Assembly (NCBI GenBank): GCA_021819245.1
Contig: JAKARI010000004.1
Location: 1-64,000, forward strand
Direction of reading: 5' to 3'
DNA: 64,000 bases
Origin: Pseudomonadota bacterium
GTDB taxonomy: Bacteria; Pseudomonadota; Gammaproteobacteria; Acidiferrobacterales; Acidiferrobacteraceae
Numbering within the stretch: position 1 is the first letter of the stretch; every line of letters begins with the position of its first letter. The position numbers were made by a program, and so were the translations under genes. A model generated the notes under the pieces. The model made no database searches, was not told where the DNA came from, and worked only from the letters and a program-made list of their open reading frames with translations. Shown here piece by piece: positions 692-9,372 of the stretch.

Positions 692-1456
692 CTAGGTCTT
701 CGTGACCGCCTTCGCGGATTTTCCTTGGGCCGCCTTGTCGCCGGCGGCGTCGTCGCTGTGCTTGCTATGGATATCGCGCCAGTAGTCCTTCTTCAGGGCG
801 TACGCGAGGATCGACAGGACGATGAACGCGCCAATCACATAGCGGCCCAGCTCGCGGCGCTCGAAGACCGACGGGTCGGAGGCGTAGCGCAGGAATGCCA
901 CCACCTCGGCCACCTGATGGTCATAGGCCTTCGGCGACTCACGTCCCGGCACCAGGACCTTGCCGCTCTTGGTGACGATCCCGCCCCAGGGGGCGAGGAT
1001 ATTGGGCATCGCGACGTTCGGGAACACATGATTGTTCCAGCCCGAGGGGCGCTTCGGATCCCAGTAGAAGGACGTGAGGTACGTATACAGAAAGCGCGAC
1101 CCCAGGGCGCGGCCCATGTGACTCAAGTTGGGCGGCGGCAGTCCCAGCCACTTCTTGGCCTGGGCCTGCGTCATCGCCGGCTTCATGCCCTTTAGGTAGG
1201 CCGCCCCCCCTGGGAGCATGAAGTCCTTCTCGACCACGGCCTTCGGGATACCAAGGTCGCTCGTCAGGCGGTTATAGCGCAGGTTGCGCACCGCATGGCA
1301 CGCGCTGCAATGGTCGGCGAAGAACCGCGCGCCGGCGATCACGTTCGCCTTCGTAAACGGCAGGTTCGGTGGCGGGGCCGGGGTCCATGCCGCCTGAGCG
1401 GTCGCCGACAGGGCGAACAGGGGGCCAAGGAGGGCCATCGGCAGGGTCTTTCTCAT
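692..1456 (-). CDS. petC: ubiquinol-cytochrome c reductase, cytochrome c1 subunit
   Basis: N-terminal signal peptide, heme motif CSACH, C-terminal TM anchor; directly downstream of cytochrome b and Rieske genes. Confidence 0.95.
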   Translation of the reverse strand: MRKTLPMALLGPLFALSATAQAAWTPAPPPNLPFTKANVIAGARFFADHCSACHAVRNLRYNRLTSDLGIPKAVVEKDFMLPGGAAYLKGMKPAMTQAQAKKWLGLPPPNLSHMGRALGSRFLYTYLTSFYWDPKRPSGWNNHVFPNVAMPNILAPWGGIVTKSGKVLVPGRESPKAYDHQVAEVVAFLRYASDPSVFERRELGRYVIGAFIVLSILAYALKKDYWRDIHSKHSDDAAGDKAAQGKSAKAVTKT

Positions 1457-2694
1457 GAGCGCACCCTTTCCGGCACCGGCCGGGTCGGTTCAAAACGGCT
1501 GATTATAGGCAGCAGGACATAAAATCCGATGTAGATGATCGCGCCCAGGCGCTCGATCAAGAAGTACTTGGGCAGCGGCGGCTGTTCGCCCACCCAGGCG
1601 AGCGTGAAGAAGGTCACGGCCATGACGATGATCATGATCCGGTAGACCGGCCGATAGCGGCTCGAACGCACGGGCGAACGATCGAGCCACGGCAAGAAAA
1701 ACGGCAGGACAATGGCCGCCACCATGAGCCCGATACCCTCGTACTTATTCGGCACCGCCCGCAGCATGGCGTAATAGGGCGCGAGATACCAAGGCGGGGT
1801 CACATCCGGCAGGCTCACCATGGGGCTTGCGCGGAAGAACGTGGTGCGCTCCAGGAATACGCCATGCATGGTCGGCGCGTAGAAGATGATGGCCGCGAAG
1901 ATCGTGAGGAACACCCCGACCCCGAAGATATCCTTCACCGTATAGTACGGATGGAAGGGAATCCCATCGAGCGGTATGCCGTCGGGTCCCTTATGATCCT
2001 TGATCTCGATACCATCGGGATTGTTCGAGCCCACCTGATGGAGTGCCAGGATATGCAGCACGATGAACGCCGCGATGATGAGAAACCACAGCACGGCATG
2101 CAGTGCGAGGAATCGCTCGAGCGTCGCCGTCCCCACCCCCGGGCCGCCGCGCGCAAGCGTGGTAAGCCCCGGCCCTATGATCGGCACCGCATGGATGATC
2201 GAGGTAATGACCTCGCCCGCCCAGTACGAGAGGTTGCCAAACGGCAGGATGTAGCCAAAGAACGCCTCACCCATCATGAGGATGTAGATGATGTAGCCCA
2301 GGATCCACAGAAGCTCGCGGGGCTTGCGATAGGAACCGTAGAGGAGGCCGCGGCCCATGTGCAGGTAGAGCAGGATGAAAATCAGGGACACCCCGTCGAC
2401 GTGCATGTAACGAACGAGCCAGCCCCACTTCGTGTCATACATGATGCCCTGTACAGAGTTGAAGGCATCCTGGCTGGTAGGCACATAGTGGGCCATGAGG
2501 AAGAAGCCCGACACCAGCTGCAGGGCGATCATGAGGAGCAATAATGAGCCCGTGTAATACAGAATATTGAAATTCTTCGGGGCGTAATACTCCGTCATGT
2601 GTTCGCGCATCATCTCGCGCGCCGGGAAGCGCGCGTTGAACCAATCGCCCAATTTGCTCATAACCCTCTCCTTGCGAAAAATCCCAGTCGGCAC
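1453..2694 (-). CDS. petB: ubiquinol-cytochrome c reductase, cytochrome b subunit
   Basis: 413 aa polytopic protein with cytochrome b signatures (GWLVRYMHVDGVSLIF, PEEW-like region, His pairs); overlaps petC by 4 bp. Confidence 0.96.
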   Translation of the reverse strand: MPTGIFRKERVMSKLGDWFNARFPAREMMREHMTEYYAPKNFNILYYTGSLLLLMIALQLVSGFFLMAHYVPTSQDAFNSVQGIMYDTKWGWLVRYMHVDGVSLIFILLYLHMGRGLLYGSYRKPRELLWILGYIIYILMMGEAFFGYILPFGNLSYWAGEVITSIIHAVPIIGPGLTTLARGGPGVGTATLERFLALHAVLWFLIIAAFIVLHILALHQVGSNNPDGIEIKDHKGPDGIPLDGIPFHPYYTVKDIFGVGVFLTIFAAIIFYAPTMHGVFLERTTFFRASPMVSLPDVTPPWYLAPYYAMLRAVPNKYEGIGLMVAAIVLPFFLPWLDRSPVRSSRYRPVYRIMIIVMAVTFFTLAWVGEQPPLPKYFLIERLGAIIYIGFYVLLPIISRFEPTRPVPERVRS

Positions 2695-2698
2695 GCCC

Positions 2699-3328
2699 CT
2701 AGCATAGGTGCGCCTTCGGATACATCTTGGTGATGGTCACGGACTTGCCATCCGGCGCGTAGTGGTACTCGGGGACCGCCATGTTGTGCGGGGCCGGCGA
2801 GCCCTTGATGACCCGGCCGGAGAGGTCATACATCGACCCGTGGCAGGGGCAGTGGAAGCCCCCGAGCCATGACGGCGACACCGAGGCCTTCTTCGGGCGG
2901 TAATGCGGAATACAGCACAGGTGATTGCAGATGCGGATCATCACCAGCCACTCGGGCTTGCGCGCGCGGTACATGTTCTGGCAGTACGGGGGCTGTTGCG
3001 GGACCTTGCAGTCCGGATCCTTCAGAATCCCCTTCTTCTGGGCCTCGATGAGGGTCGCGAGCATCTCAGGCGTGCGGTTTACGATGATCACGGGCTTTTT
3101 CTGCCACGGGACCGTCAGCTGCATGCCCGGCTCGATCGGCGCCAGATTGACGGTCGTCGAGGCGGCGGCGGCCGCCGCCGCGGTCGGCTCGAGGCTTTCC
3201 ACCAAGGCCACCGCCACCGGTACCACCACCCCCACGCCGGCCACAGAAGTGGCCGCGATCAGAAAGCGGCGCCTTCCCGGGTTGGGACTCTTCTGTTGAT
3301 CCTGCGGATCCCCATGTGTCTTCGCCAT
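2699..3328 (-). CDS. petA: ubiquinol-cytochrome c reductase, Rieske iron-sulfur subunit
   Basis: Tat-like N-terminus (RRRFLIAATSVAGVG), Rieske boxes CNHLCC and CPCHGS. Confidence 0.95.
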   Translation of the reverse strand: MAKTHGDPQDQQKSPNPGRRRFLIAATSVAGVGVVVPVAVALVESLEPTAAAAAAASTTVNLAPIEPGMQLTVPWQKKPVIIVNRTPEMLATLIEAQKKGILKDPDCKVPQQPPYCQNMYRARKPEWLVMIRICNHLCCIPHYRPKKASVSPSWLGGFHCPCHGSMYDLSGRVIKGSPAPHNMAVPEYHYAPDGKSVTITKMYPKAHLC

Positions 3329-3419
3329 GCCATCACCTCAACTTTCACTATCATCGGTTTGCCTGACCCCAGCGGTCTTTAAGGTCGGCTCGTCAGCGCG
3401 TGCCTTGCGCCGTCCTGGT

Positions 3420-4205
3420 CTATCCGGTGGCCACTCCCGGCATGCCTGCCCCCTGCTGCGCCATCCACTCCCCGGCATGCACGCGCTGGCCGCGGTAGGG
3501 ACGCCCGGTGGCGGCCATGAGGCCGACATAGGCGGGCATCAGGTCCTCGGGGGTCGGCCACGAGCCCGTCGGCGCCCCCGGATGGGTGCGCAGCCGCATC
3601 TCGGTGCGTGCCGGGCCCGGATCGAGGACATGCACGCGCACGTCGGTATTGCTCAACTCCGCCGCCCACATGAGTGCGAGATTGTCCGCCCCGGCCTTGG
3701 CGGCGCCATAGGCCCCCCAATAGCCCTTGGCCTGTACCGCGCAGGCGTCGCTCGTAAAGATCACCGCGGCGTCCCCCGCCTCGGTCAAAAGCGGCAGGCA
3801 GGCCTGCGTCAGCAGAAAGGGGGCGGTCAGATTGACCTGCAGGGTCTGCGTCCAGACGTCGTAGGGATGAAACGCAAGCGGCGTCAGGAGATCGAGAACG
3901 GCGGCATTGTGCAAAATCCCGTCGAGGTGGCCGATCTCGGCGCGCACTGCCGCCGCGAGCGTCGCATAATCCGCAGGCGTGGCCAAGGCGAGGTCGAGCG
4001 GATGCGCGATAGGTGTCGGGCCGCCCTCCGCCACGATGGCGTCATAGGTCGCCTCGATCGCCTTGACCTGGCAGTCGAGCAGAATGACCTCGGCGCCATG
4101 ACGGGCGTAGGCCTGCGCCGCCGCCCGGCCAAGCCCTTGGCCCGCGCCCGTCACGAGCACGGCGCGACCCTTCAGGCAGTCGGCCGGCGGCAGGGGGTAA
4201 GCCAT
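3420..4205 (-). CDS. SDR-family oxidoreductase (SdrA-like, in petI-type operon)
   Basis: TGAGQGLGRA Rossmann motif, YGAAKAG active-site motif; position between cyt c4 and petA. Confidence 0.85.
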   Translation of the reverse strand: MAYPLPPADCLKGRAVLVTGAGQGLGRAAAQAYARHGAEVILLDCQVKAIEATYDAIVAEGGPTPIAHPLDLALATPADYATLAAAVRAEIGHLDGILHNAAVLDLLTPLAFHPYDVWTQTLQVNLTAPFLLTQACLPLLTEAGDAAVIFTSDACAVQAKGYWGAYGAAKAGADNLALMWAAELSNTDVRVHVLDPGPARTEMRLRTHPGAPTGSWPTPEDLMPAYVGLMAATGRPYRGQRVHAGEWMAQQGAGMPGVATG

Positions 4206-4219
4206 GAGTGGACTCCTTA

Positions 4220-4939
4220 CTACAGGCTGTGGACGTAGGCGGCCAGCGCGGTCATCTGCGCAGTCGACAGCTTGCCGGCTATGGTGCGCATGATGGCGTG
4301 CGGGTCATTGGCCCGGGTATGGTTCTTGAAGGCCTGCAACTGGGCGATCACATAGGCCTGATGCTGGCCGGCCAGGCGCGGGAACCACGGCTCGAGGCCG
4401 AGGCCGGTGGCCCCATGACAGGCCATGCAGGCCGGCAGGTGGCTCGCGATCACCCCGCCCATGTAAAGCTTCTTGCCGGCGGCCACGAGCTTCGGGCTGC
4501 CGGGTTGGCCCGGGGCGCCCTTCTGGCTCGCGAAATACAGCGCAATCTCACGGATCTTGTTCCGTGGAATCATAGCCGCCATGCCCCACATGATGGACTG
4601 CGCCAGGGGATCGGCGCGGGTATGATTGCGGAAGTCCTCGATCTGCTTGACGAGGTAGGGCTCGCCCTGGCCGGCGAGGTTCGGAAACTCGCCCAGGGGC
4701 GAGACGCCGGTCAGCCCATGGCAGGCCGAGCAGGTGCTGGTGACCAGCGCAGGGGCCTTGGGATTGGTGGCTACGAGCGGCGGTGTGCGCCCGGTCAAAA
4801 GCCGCGCCTTGACCGGAGCGGCCTTGGGCTTATGGGCTACGGCCTTCGCCGCTGGCGCCGAGGATGGGTTTGCGGCATAGGCAGCGGCCATGACCGCCAG
4901 TCCCAGTCCCAATGCGAAGCCCCTGTATATGACTTTCAT
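4220..4939 (-). CDS. diheme cytochrome c4 (CycA-like)
   Basis: Signal peptide MKVIYRGFALGLGLAVMAAAYA and two CxxCH motifs (CSACH, CMACH); start trimmed to internal ATG from ORF 4220..5080. Confidence 0.9.
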   Translation of the reverse strand: MKVIYRGFALGLGLAVMAAAYAANPSSAPAAKAVAHKPKAAPVKARLLTGRTPPLVATNPKAPALVTSTCSACHGLTGVSPLGEFPNLAGQGEPYLVKQIEDFRNHTRADPLAQSIMWGMAAMIPRNKIREIALYFASQKGAPGQPGSPKLVAAGKKLYMGGVIASHLPACMACHGATGLGLEPWFPRLAGQHQAYVIAQLQAFKNHTRANDPHAIMRTIAGKLSTAQMTALAAYVHSL

Positions 4940-5277: not shown

Positions 5278-6102
5278 TTATGGGCGTCTCATGGCCAGGG
5301 CGCGCGCATACAAGGCCTTTTTCGGGACGCCCGTGATCGATACCGCCAGATCCACGGCCTGGCGCAGCGGCAATGTGTCGATCAGAAGGGCAAGTACCCG
5401 CTCGCCCTCGTCGGTCTCGGCCGGAGGGGGTGCACCCCGCACGACAAGGACATATTCCCCGCGCGGGGCCTGCGCGTTGGCGCGCGCGGCCAGCTCGGCC
5501 AGCGTGCTGAAAACCCCCTCCTCAAAGCGCTTGGTCAGTTCGCGTACGAGGGTTGCCTCGCGCTGCCCCCCGAAGGCCACACTGAGGTCCGCAAGGCTTG
5601 CCGCCAGGCGGTGGGGCGACTCGTAAAACACGAGCGTCCGCGACTCCGACGCGAGGCTGTTGAAGTAGGCCCGGCGCGCCGCCGCCTGAGCCGGCGGGAA
5701 CCCCTCGAAGGCGAAACGGTCACACGGGATGCCGGCCACCGAAAGGGCCGCCAGGGCGGCACTCGGCCCGGCCACGGCGTACACCGGCAGGCCCGCCAGA
5801 CGCGTGGCACGCACCAGCCGATAACCGGGATCGCTGATCAAGGGCGTGCCGGCGTCGCTTATGAGGGCGACGGCCTCACCGGCGCGCAACCGCGCTAGGA
5901 GGCCGTCTACGCGGTCTTGTTCGTTGTGGTCATGGACGGAGACGAGAGGGGTCCGGATATCCCACTGCCGGCACAGGATCTGCGAGTGGCGGGTGTCTTC
6001 GGCGGCGATCACGGCCACCGATTGCAGTACCTCGCGCGCGCGCGGCGACAGATCCTGAAGATTGCCAAGCGGGGTGGCAACGACGTAGAGGCCCGGCGTC
6101 AT
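5278..6102 (-). CDS. rsmI: 16S rRNA (cytidine(1402)-2'-O)-methyltransferase
   Basis: MTPGLYVVATPLGNLQDLSPRA..., AEDTRHSQ, SDAGTPLISDPGYRLV, GFPP motifs; start trimmed from longer ORF. Confidence 0.95.
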   Translation of the reverse strand: MTPGLYVVATPLGNLQDLSPRAREVLQSVAVIAAEDTRHSQILCRQWDIRTPLVSVHDHNEQDRVDGLLARLRAGEAVALISDAGTPLISDPGYRLVRATRLAGLPVYAVAGPSAALAALSVAGIPCDRFAFEGFPPAQAAARRAYFNSLASESRTLVFYESPHRLAASLADLSVAFGGQREATLVRELTKRFEEGVFSTLAELAARANAQAPRGEYVLVVRGAPPPAETDEGERVLALLIDTLPLRQAVDLAVSITGVPKKALYARALAMRRP

Positions 6103-6156
6103 GCGCACCGACCCCCGGAGATAGACATTTTGCGCGCCGTTTTGGATACTTGACCC

Positions 6157-8106
6157 ATGAATCGTTTCTCGCCGCCGCGCGCTCCGCGCCCCGTTAGTAC
6201 CCTTGTCGCCACCATTCTCATCAGTCTCGGTCTCGCAGGCTGCGTGCCGACGCTGCGCCCAAGCACTCGGGCCATGACCGCAACGACCGCCGCGCGCGCG
6301 GTCCGGCATCACCATTACATAGAGGGCTCTCAAGCCTATCAGCATCTGGCGCGCCACTCCACGGGCGGGGCGCGGGCCCGCTATACCCTAAAGGCCGCCG
6401 AGGCCCTGGTGCGGGCCGGCGCGCTGCAGGCCGCCGATCAGGAATTGCGCCGGGTCAAGCCGCCGCTCTCGGCGCGCCTCGCGGCCCGCAAAGAGGCGCT
6501 GCTGGCCGAAATCGACGCCGCGCGCAGCCATCCGGCAAGGGCCTATGGCGAGGCCCGCAAGGCCCTGCGCCATCCGAATCTGCGCCCGCGATTGCAGGCC
6601 GAGATCCGCCGCATCGAGGCCCAGGTCTCCCTGAGCTTGGGACACCCCGTACGGGCCGCGCGTGACATGATCGCGCGCGAGCGCCTGCTGGTCTCGCGTC
6701 GAAGGCTCACCAACAATGAGACCGCGCTCTGGCACGATCTGGCGGCCGTGCCGCGCATGCGGCTCCGGCGCCTCTACGCGCAAGCGCCCAGCAGGGCGGT
6801 GCGCGCCTGGGCCCGGCTGCAGATCATCGCGCGCCGTTATCCGCCACAGTCGCAGCGCCTGCGCGCGGCCGTCGCGCAATGGCGGCATCGCTATCGGAAA
6901 TTCGTCCCGACGGCGGCATTCTTGAGGATGATCCTGGGGGCGAAAGGGCACCCGCGCCCCGCACCGCGGACCGTTGCCCTGCTGTTACCGCTGTCGTCGC
7001 CATTCGCCAAGGCCGCAAAGGCCGTCGAGCGCGGCTTCGTGGCCATGGCCAAGGTCCATCCGCTTCCCGGAAACCCGGCCATCGATATCTATGACATCGG
7101 CAGCAATCCCGCGGCCGCCACGCACTATTATCGGCGGGCCGTCCGGCATGGCGCGCAGTTCATCGTGGGCCCCCTGGGCGCCGAGGCGGTGGCCAACATC
7201 GCCGATCATGCGCACTTCACGGTCCCGACCCTGCTGCTTGGCCTGGCCAAGGGTGGTCCCCGCCACGACCCGGGGCGCACCCCTGTCTACCAGTTCAGCC
7301 TGGCGCGCACCCTCGAGGCCCGCCAAGCCGCCGATCGCGCCTCCCTCGATGGCCATACTCGCGCGGCCATCCTGTATCCGGATTCGCCCTTCGGGCACCG
7401 CATGCGCCGCGCATTCGCCCGGCGCTGGCGCCACCTGGGCGGACTGGTGGTAGCACAGACCTCCTATGTCCCGGGCTCTACAGGGTATGTGCGGCCGGTG
7501 GAAGACCTGCTCGACATCGCCCAAAGCCGCGCGCGCTATGACCGCCTGCGACGGATCCTCGGCATGCCGATCGCCTTTACTGCCCGTAGGCGGCAAGACG
7601 TCGGCTTCATATTTCTCGTGGCCGACGCCCCGGACGCGCGCCTCATAAAGCCACTGCTCGACTACGACCACGCCGACACCCTGCCGGTCTATTCCACCTC
7701 GACCGTGTTCACCGGACGGCGGGACCCGGTCTATGACCGCGACCTCGACGGCATCACATTTGGCGACATGCCGTGGATGCTCGTAGGCAACGGCCGCATG
7801 GGGCGTTTACGCCGCACGCTGCCCGATGCCGGCCGCTATGACTTTACGCCGTTTGCCCGCCTGTTCGCCTACGGCGCCGACGCCGAGGGTCTCGTTGCGC
7901 GGCTCGACCGCCTGAGTCTGGGCGGTGGCGAGCGCTACAATGGACTGACGGGGGCACTGAGCGTGCGCCGCAACGACGTCATCAGGCGCACCCTCGTGTG
8001 GGCTGAGTTCCGAAAGGGCATTCCGCGACTCCTGGACCACTTCCAGCATGACCGCGGGCTTTTTTCCCCACGCCCGCACGCTGAAGGCCTGCCCGGCCGG
8101 TCATGA
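6157..8106 (+). CDS. lpoA: penicillin-binding protein activator, LppC/LpoA-type lipoprotein
   Basis: Lipobox LAGC, periplasmic binding-like C-terminal domain (IVGPLGAEAVANIADHA); divergent from rsmI as in many proteobacteria. Confidence 0.85.
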   Translation: MNRFSPPRAPRPVSTLVATILISLGLAGCVPTLRPSTRAMTATTAARAVRHHHYIEGSQAYQHLARHSTGGARARYTLKAAEALVRAGALQAADQELRRVKPPLSARLAARKEALLAEIDAARSHPARAYGEARKALRHPNLRPRLQAEIRRIEAQVSLSLGHPVRAARDMIARERLLVSRRRLTNNETALWHDLAAVPRMRLRRLYAQAPSRAVRAWARLQIIARRYPPQSQRLRAAVAQWRHRYRKFVPTAAFLRMILGAKGHPRPAPRTVALLLPLSSPFAKAAKAVERGFVAMAKVHPLPGNPAIDIYDIGSNPAAATHYYRRAVRHGAQFIVGPLGAEAVANIADHAHFTVPTLLLGLAKGGPRHDPGRTPVYQFSLARTLEARQAADRASLDGHTRAAILYPDSPFGHRMRRAFARRWRHLGGLVVAQTSYVPGSTGYVRPVEDLLDIAQSRARYDRLRRILGMPIAFTARRRQDVGFIFLVADAPDARLIKPLLDYDHADTLPVYSTSTVFTGRRDPVYDRDLDGITFGDMPWMLVGNGRMGRLRRTLPDAGRYDFTPFARLFAYGADAEGLVARLDRLSLGGGERYNGLTGALSVRRNDVIRRTLVWAEFRKGIPRLLDHFQHDRGLFSPRPHAEGLPGRS

Positions 8107-8141
8107 CCACGCCGCGAAAGCGGACTATATTTGGTTTTTAG

Positions 8142-8765
<624 letters not shown>

Positions 8766-8766
8766 G

Positions 8767-9372
8767 ATGCGATCGCGGGCGGCTCGCAGCGTAGCGGCCA
8801 TGGTCCTCGCAGCCGCGCTCGCGTCCGCCCTTACCGGGTGCACCCCGCTTTTGGTGGGAGGAGCGGCGACCGGGGCCAGTGTCGCAAGCGGCGGACCCGG
8901 GGCGGGCACGATGGTCGACGACACGTTCATAAAGTTTCGTGCCGAGGCCATCATTGCCGCGCACAAGAACCTGCATCGCGCGACCCATGTCGACGTCACC
9001 TGCGTGAACGGCCGCCTTCTGCTCACGGGCGAGGCGAACAATGTTCAGGACCGCGCGCGCATCCTGGACCTGGTGCGAGGTATACGCGGCATCCGCCAGA
9101 TCATCGATCAGTTGCGGCTTGCGCCGCCGAGTTCCTTTGCCTCACGGCTGGCCAACTCGTGGATCACCCTGCGCGTCAAATCGGCGCTTGCTGCCAAAGG
9201 TCTGGATGTCGGGCGCATAACGGTCGTCACCGCGCATCGTGTCGTCTACCTTCTCGGAATCGTGCCCCGCTCGGTGGGCAACCGGGCGGCACTCGCGGCA
9301 AGCGTCATTCCTCATGTGCGCAGTATCATCGAACTGTTCCAGTACCCGGTCCATGCCCATGATCGCAGATAA
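8767..9372 (+). CDS. dolP: BON-domain outer-membrane lipoprotein (DolP/YraP-like)
   Basis: Lipobox LTGC, two BON-like repeats; conserved position after DiaA; start chosen at ATG immediately after the previous stop. Confidence 0.8.

Follow-up and report, generated by a model that had tools for sequence, protein, structure and literature searches.

Acidithiobacillus ferrooxidans possesses two operons for cytochrome bc1 complexes, petI (cycA1-sdrA1-petA1B1C1) and petII (cycA2-sdrA2-petA2B2C2-hip). Both contain cycA-sdrA-petABC, to which petII adds hip, and petI is induced on iron, petII on sulfur (PMC2754497). The petABC operons of ordinary gammaproteobacterial bc1 complexes encode the same core subunits with the same haem and FeS ligands, but no match to the diheme cytochrome c4 or the short-chain dehydrogenase (SDR) encoded by cycA and sdrA was found beside the operons checked. 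A cycA-sdrA-petA-petB-petC operon has also been published for the genus Acidiferrobacter (PMC10654088), from whose ancestor the iron oxidation proteins of Acidithiobacillus are proposed to have been acquired (PMC8528912). The gene order of the Acidiferrobacter rus operon appears in the same account, with names given by similarity to, and position in, the rus operon of Acidithiobacillus (PMC10654088). The genome analyzed here most likely belongs to Acidiferrobacter, and since the same operon is already described in that account, the operon itself is not new. The account's passages on the pet operon do not treat the catalytic site of the SDR, the Qo and Rieske motifs, or the question of whether a second bc1 is lacking (PMC10654088). 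Our analysis adds a class-wide PPWY Qo motif, altered Rieske loops, and an Asp replacing the catalytic Ser of the SDR.

The analyzed window comprises the first 64 kb of a 101,398-bp contig, which is part of a 2.25-Mb genome in 54 contigs with an estimated completeness of 91%. Five genes on its minus strand, at positions 692-4939, encode in the order of transcription a diheme cytochrome c4, an SDR, a Rieske protein, cytochrome b, and cytochrome c1:

4220..4939, minus strand: cycA-type diheme cytochrome c4, 239 aa, first gene (Pfam Cytochrom_C, 9.5e-17; two CxxCH, at residues 70 and 171)
3420..4205, minus strand: sdrA-type SDR, 261 aa, YciK-like (Pfam adh_short, 2.8e-37; TGAGQGLG and YxxxK; Asp at the catalytic Ser position)
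2699..3328, minus strand: petA, Rieske iron-sulfur protein, 209 aa (TIGR01416, 6.3e-63; TAT signal; loops CNHLCC and CPCHGSMYD)
1453..2661, minus strand: petB, cytochrome b, 402 aa (Pfam Cytochrome_B, 6.9e-57, and C-terminal domain, 1e-31; Qo motif PPWY)
692..1456, minus strand: petC, cytochrome c1, 254 aa (Pfam Cytochrom_C1, 3.6e-15; one CxxCH, CSACH, at residue 50)

The initial annotation had described a tightly spaced five-gene operon homologous to the Acidithiobacillus pet operons. Its span proved exact, all five protein families were matched with scores far above chance level, and the gene order is the same as in petI and petII. The genes are separated by 14 nt (c4-sdr), 91 nt (sdr-petA), and 37 nt (petA-petB), petB and petC share a 4-nt ATGA overlap, and the order is identical in the operon of every relative with full coverage. 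Weak sequence scans revealed neither a promoter-like site on the minus strand nor a minus-strand terminator-like site between the operon genes, and the five genes are presumably co-transcribed. The contig starts 691 bp beyond petC, and the region downstream of the operon is thus absent from the assembly. All three subunits that define a cytochrome bc1 complex, the Rieske protein, cytochrome b, and cytochrome c1, are present with intact haem and FeS ligands, including the four invariant haem-b ligands of PetB (His88/102/189/204 in alignment numbering). Identity with the "deranged bc1" of Acetobacteraceae (PMC10715153) was ruled out, because the ligands are intact in this operon.

In a PetB tree and in a tree of concatenated PetABC, the operon proteins form one clade with petI and petII, and the ordinary gammaproteobacterial bc1 sequences lie outside it with support of 100/100. 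Ordinary PetB is about 50-54% identical to that of this operon. The Qo motif is PPWY in all 37 operon-type cytochrome b sequences covering the site, and PLWY or PVWY in the ordinary ones (n = 16); a literature search found no paper that names the PPWY, PEWY, and PVWY motifs together. The operon-type Rieske loops, C-[N/T]-H-L-C-C and CPCHGSMYD, are common to petI, petII, and this operon, and in ordinary Rieske proteins the first loop reads CTHLGC and the second CHGSx with F (mostly) or Y as the next residue. Mutants of Rieske proteins indicate that a Ser plus a Tyr near the cluster raise its potential. The Ser and Tyr of the operon-type protein fit a high-potential electron transport chain in an acidophile, but as both residues are present in petI as well as petII, they do not mark the direction of electron flow. 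The likeness of the locus to petI extends over gene order, the five families, PPWY, the Rieske loops, and the Asp of the SDR, and that to petII over gene order, the five families, and the residue signatures. Gene order was rejected as a discriminator between the two, for both have cycA-sdrA-petABC; being common to petI (iron, uphill) and petII (sulfur, forward), the order c4-SDR-petABC is no marker of direction either.

An SDR is encoded in the operon of every examined lineage with this type of bc1. The solved structures closest to it are the YciK-type SDRs 3i1j, 3iah, and 3f1k, and its score against the YciK family (238 bits) lies below the family cut-off of 269. The ungapped alignment to these structures fixes the position of the catalytic Ser, 13 residues before the Tyr, which is Ser in the YciK structures and Asp in the operon SDR. 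In the literature, SdrA1 and SdrA2 are proposed to act as oxidoreductases, and N125, S147, Y166, and K170 are given as the catalytic residues of SdrA1 (PMC2754497). An active NAD(P)H oxidoreductase that feeds or drains the quinone pool or complex I would be in line with the retained nucleotide-binding motif TGxxxGxG (here TGAGQGLG), the helix Asn, and the Tyr and Lys of YxxxK. The Ser of the Asn-Ser-Tyr-Lys tetrad is replaced, however, which leaves the tetrad incomplete, and Asp occupies this site in 34 of the 34 operon SDRs that cover it. Comparison of the published residues in A. ferruginosus numbering also argues against such an activity: N125, Y166, and K170 agree in A. ferruginosus, but the actual Ser position is D153, and the published "S147" lies at -19 instead of -13 from Tyr166, six residues from the true site, where it is unconserved and is Ala in the SDR of this operon. 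An active oxidoreductase therefore appears doubtful, if conceivable. The uniform change from Ser to Asp takes away one sequence argument for the presumed role. Because the catalytic Ser is always Asp, we think, judging from the sequence, that the SDR retains nucleotide binding without functioning as an ordinary dehydrogenase; some reaction may nevertheless be possible with the conserved Asp. It is rather improbable that the SDR has lost or changed its catalytic function and acts as an NAD(P)-binding partner of the complex, defining an "SDR-type" class of bc1 complexes in which it would monitor the pyridine nucleotide pool or assist assembly and thereby contribute to setting the direction of flow. 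An Asp after strand beta-2 of SDRs usually favors NAD. In the operon SDRs this residue is Asp in the iron-oxidizing crown of the genus, and in most others it is Gly, with Arg or Lys as the next residue. No close SDR paralog was found in the source genome, where the next best match has 33% identity.

The production of NADH with electrons from Fe(II) requires a bc1 complex that works backwards, which may or may not have to be a dedicated enzyme. We consider it reasonably probable that the operon encodes an acidophile-type bc1 complex with a diheme c4 partner and an SDR, which an Acidiferrobacter-like iron and sulfur oxidizer uses in both directions. High-potential electrons would enter either from Fe(II) via Cyc2, a rusticyanin-like protein, and c4, or from thiosulfate via Sox, and the membrane potential would drive them back through c1, the Rieske protein, and cytochrome b to quinone and NAD. 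With the quinone pool reduced by sulfur compounds, the same complex would run forward to c4. We infer these directions of flow from gene content, homology, the single cytochrome b, the conserved residues, and the finding of soxB, a rusticyanin-like gene, and the start of a cyc2 gene. Operation in both directions is probably to be favored because the operon holds the sole cytochrome b found in the 91%-complete draft. A. ferrooxidans, in contrast, has two bc1 operons. An iron and sulfur oxidizer with one such operon would offer a clean test case for a single bidirectional complex.

The iron oxidation genes that the initial annotation had suggested looking for were recovered in part. The source genome encodes an AfCyc2-type N-terminus with CATCH (80% identity over query residues 5-90), located 233 bp from the far end of the operon's own contig, where the gene is cut, and a rusticyanin-like protein that scores 141.6 bits, just below the cut-off of 146.7. 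A rus-type CoxA was not found in the 91%-complete draft, and the iron genes are incomplete in the assembly. The cyc2 start is syntenic with the second cyc2 copy of the close relative G009, which precedes a cyc1-like stretch, and not with the copy in the rus operon of G009. SoxB was identified with 817.7 bits. Two COX1 proteins were found, both long, and the one tested is of the CyoB type, though under the CyoB family cut-off. An oxidase of this type would let forward electron flow bypass bc1, which counts against use of the complex both ways.

The initial annotation had equated the locus with petI and assigned it to uphill electron transfer. In its strict form, a module that only pushes electrons from Fe(II) to quinone and NAD, this appears unlikely to us. 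The bc1 complex of iron-grown A. ferrooxidans was reportedly described in 2002 as working only in reverse, and the cyc2 start and rusticyanin-like gene would be consistent with such a role. PetB is 77-79% identical to the petI-type copies of Acidithiobacillus and 66-68% to the petII-type ones, but these raw identities are not decisive for petI, since the petII branch is longer and concatenation gives a different tree. With PetB alone, petI groups with the Acidiferrobacterales clade (88/88), whereas concatenated PetABC places it with petII instead (84/63); petI and petII both form solid clades, and the Acidiferrobacterales clade is moderately supported (80/86 and 94/92). Forcing petI and this operon together costs 4 log-likelihood units (AU test, p = 0.354), and phylogeny does not decisively put the two together. 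In Acidithiobacillus petI adjoins resBC, which follows the petI copies in four loci of the group, and petII carries hip after petC, but the ORFs inspected 3' of the syntenic operon in G009 code for a cyclopropane synthase and an enolase and include neither resBC nor hip. Moreover, the operon also occurs in nine relatives of at least 90% completeness (G001, G011, G014, G015, G016, G021, G026, G030, and G040) in which Cyc2 matches did not exceed 40% identity, rusticyanin matches did not exceed 83 bits, and no rus-type CoxA was found, and it provides the only cytochrome b found in the source genome, which also has soxB. The petII operon shares the c4-SDR layout as well, and sequence by itself cannot establish uphill-only operation.

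An ordinary, petII-like forward bc1 for sulfur oxidation without a role in iron oxidation is very unlikely: the sulfur-induced petII of A. ferrooxidans has the same gene order (PMC2754497), soxB is present, relatives without a rus operon carry the operon, and petII occurs without petI in four Acidithiobacillus-group genomes, but the lack of hip among the ORFs inspected downstream in G009, the AU test, in which petII plus this operon was the least favored grouping (-10 log-likelihood units, p = 0.097), and the cyc2 start and rusticyanin-like gene in a genome with no other bc1 found for making NADH from Fe(II) speak against it.

The copy number of the operon varies among relatives. Among 57 genomes of the order, the cytochrome b type of the operon was found in all three sampled genera of the home family and in four of the five genomes of genus g7 (family f5), and was not found elsewhere. 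These four g7 genomes also carry a second cytochrome b of the ordinary type, and three relatives from the same genus as the source genome (G005, G007, and G009) have two copies of the operon type. Given this variation, the 91%-complete draft, and the contig end 691 bp past petC, a second bc1 operon could be missing from the assembly. PetB of the Acidithiobacillus group falls into two bands, with petI-like copies (77-79% identity) in six genomes and petII-like copies (65-68%) in ten, four of the latter being those without petI. Several of the nine relatives without rus-type genes encode a distant Cyc2 (35-38%) and may oxidize iron by another route.

The contig that carries the pet operon of this Acidiferrobacter-like genome (window 692-4939, minus strand) also holds the start of a Cyc2 gene, recognizable by its CATCH haem motif and truncated by the contig end. 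This gene lies at the far end, so that the pet operon and cyc2 occupy opposite ends of a single contig. Upstream of the operon, synteny is shared with copy b of the same-genus relative G009. The features concerned are:

Window 5278-9372: cluster of rsmI, lpoA-like (LppC), phosphoheptose isomerase/diaA-like and BON lipoprotein genes, upstream of the pet operon
Contig C9 of this genome (G000), 101166-101398 (= locus L212, 3167-3399), outside the window: start of Cyc2 gene

In the short-chain dehydrogenase (SDR) of the operon (window 3420-4205) and its relatives, beta-2 is followed by Asp in the iron-oxidizing crown of the genus and in f5_G021 and by Gly in other lineages, a substitution which suggests that the nucleotide preference has switched. 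G021 encodes a second SDR outside its pet operon, with 49% identity to that of the window; it retains the catalytic Ser and has lost the Lys of YxxxK:

Contig C9 of G021, 89157-89864 (locus L241): second SDR

Acidophile-type and ordinary-type bc1 cytochrome b occur together in G021, G026, G030 and G040, members of genus g7 in another family, possibly as a result of gene transfer. According to published work, pet-I and pet-II are confined to the iron/sulfur-oxidizing clade (PMC8528912). Within the Acidithiobacillus group, G072-G075 have petII-type operons without a petI copy; a search for rusticyanin in G074 gave no match.

Three same-genus relatives (G005, G007 and G009) carry two copies. In the single-contig genome G005 (loci L134, L135, L220, L221), both petB copies contain a repeated stretch of 12 residues, and c4, sdr and the cyc2 region carry exact duplications of 58-119 bp that disrupt genes; these repeats may be either real or assembly artefacts. 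Between the two pet operons of G009 (L132 and L133), petB-petC and sdr-c4 are 99.9% identical, as against 92% for petA, a pattern that looks like gene conversion from which petA alone escaped.
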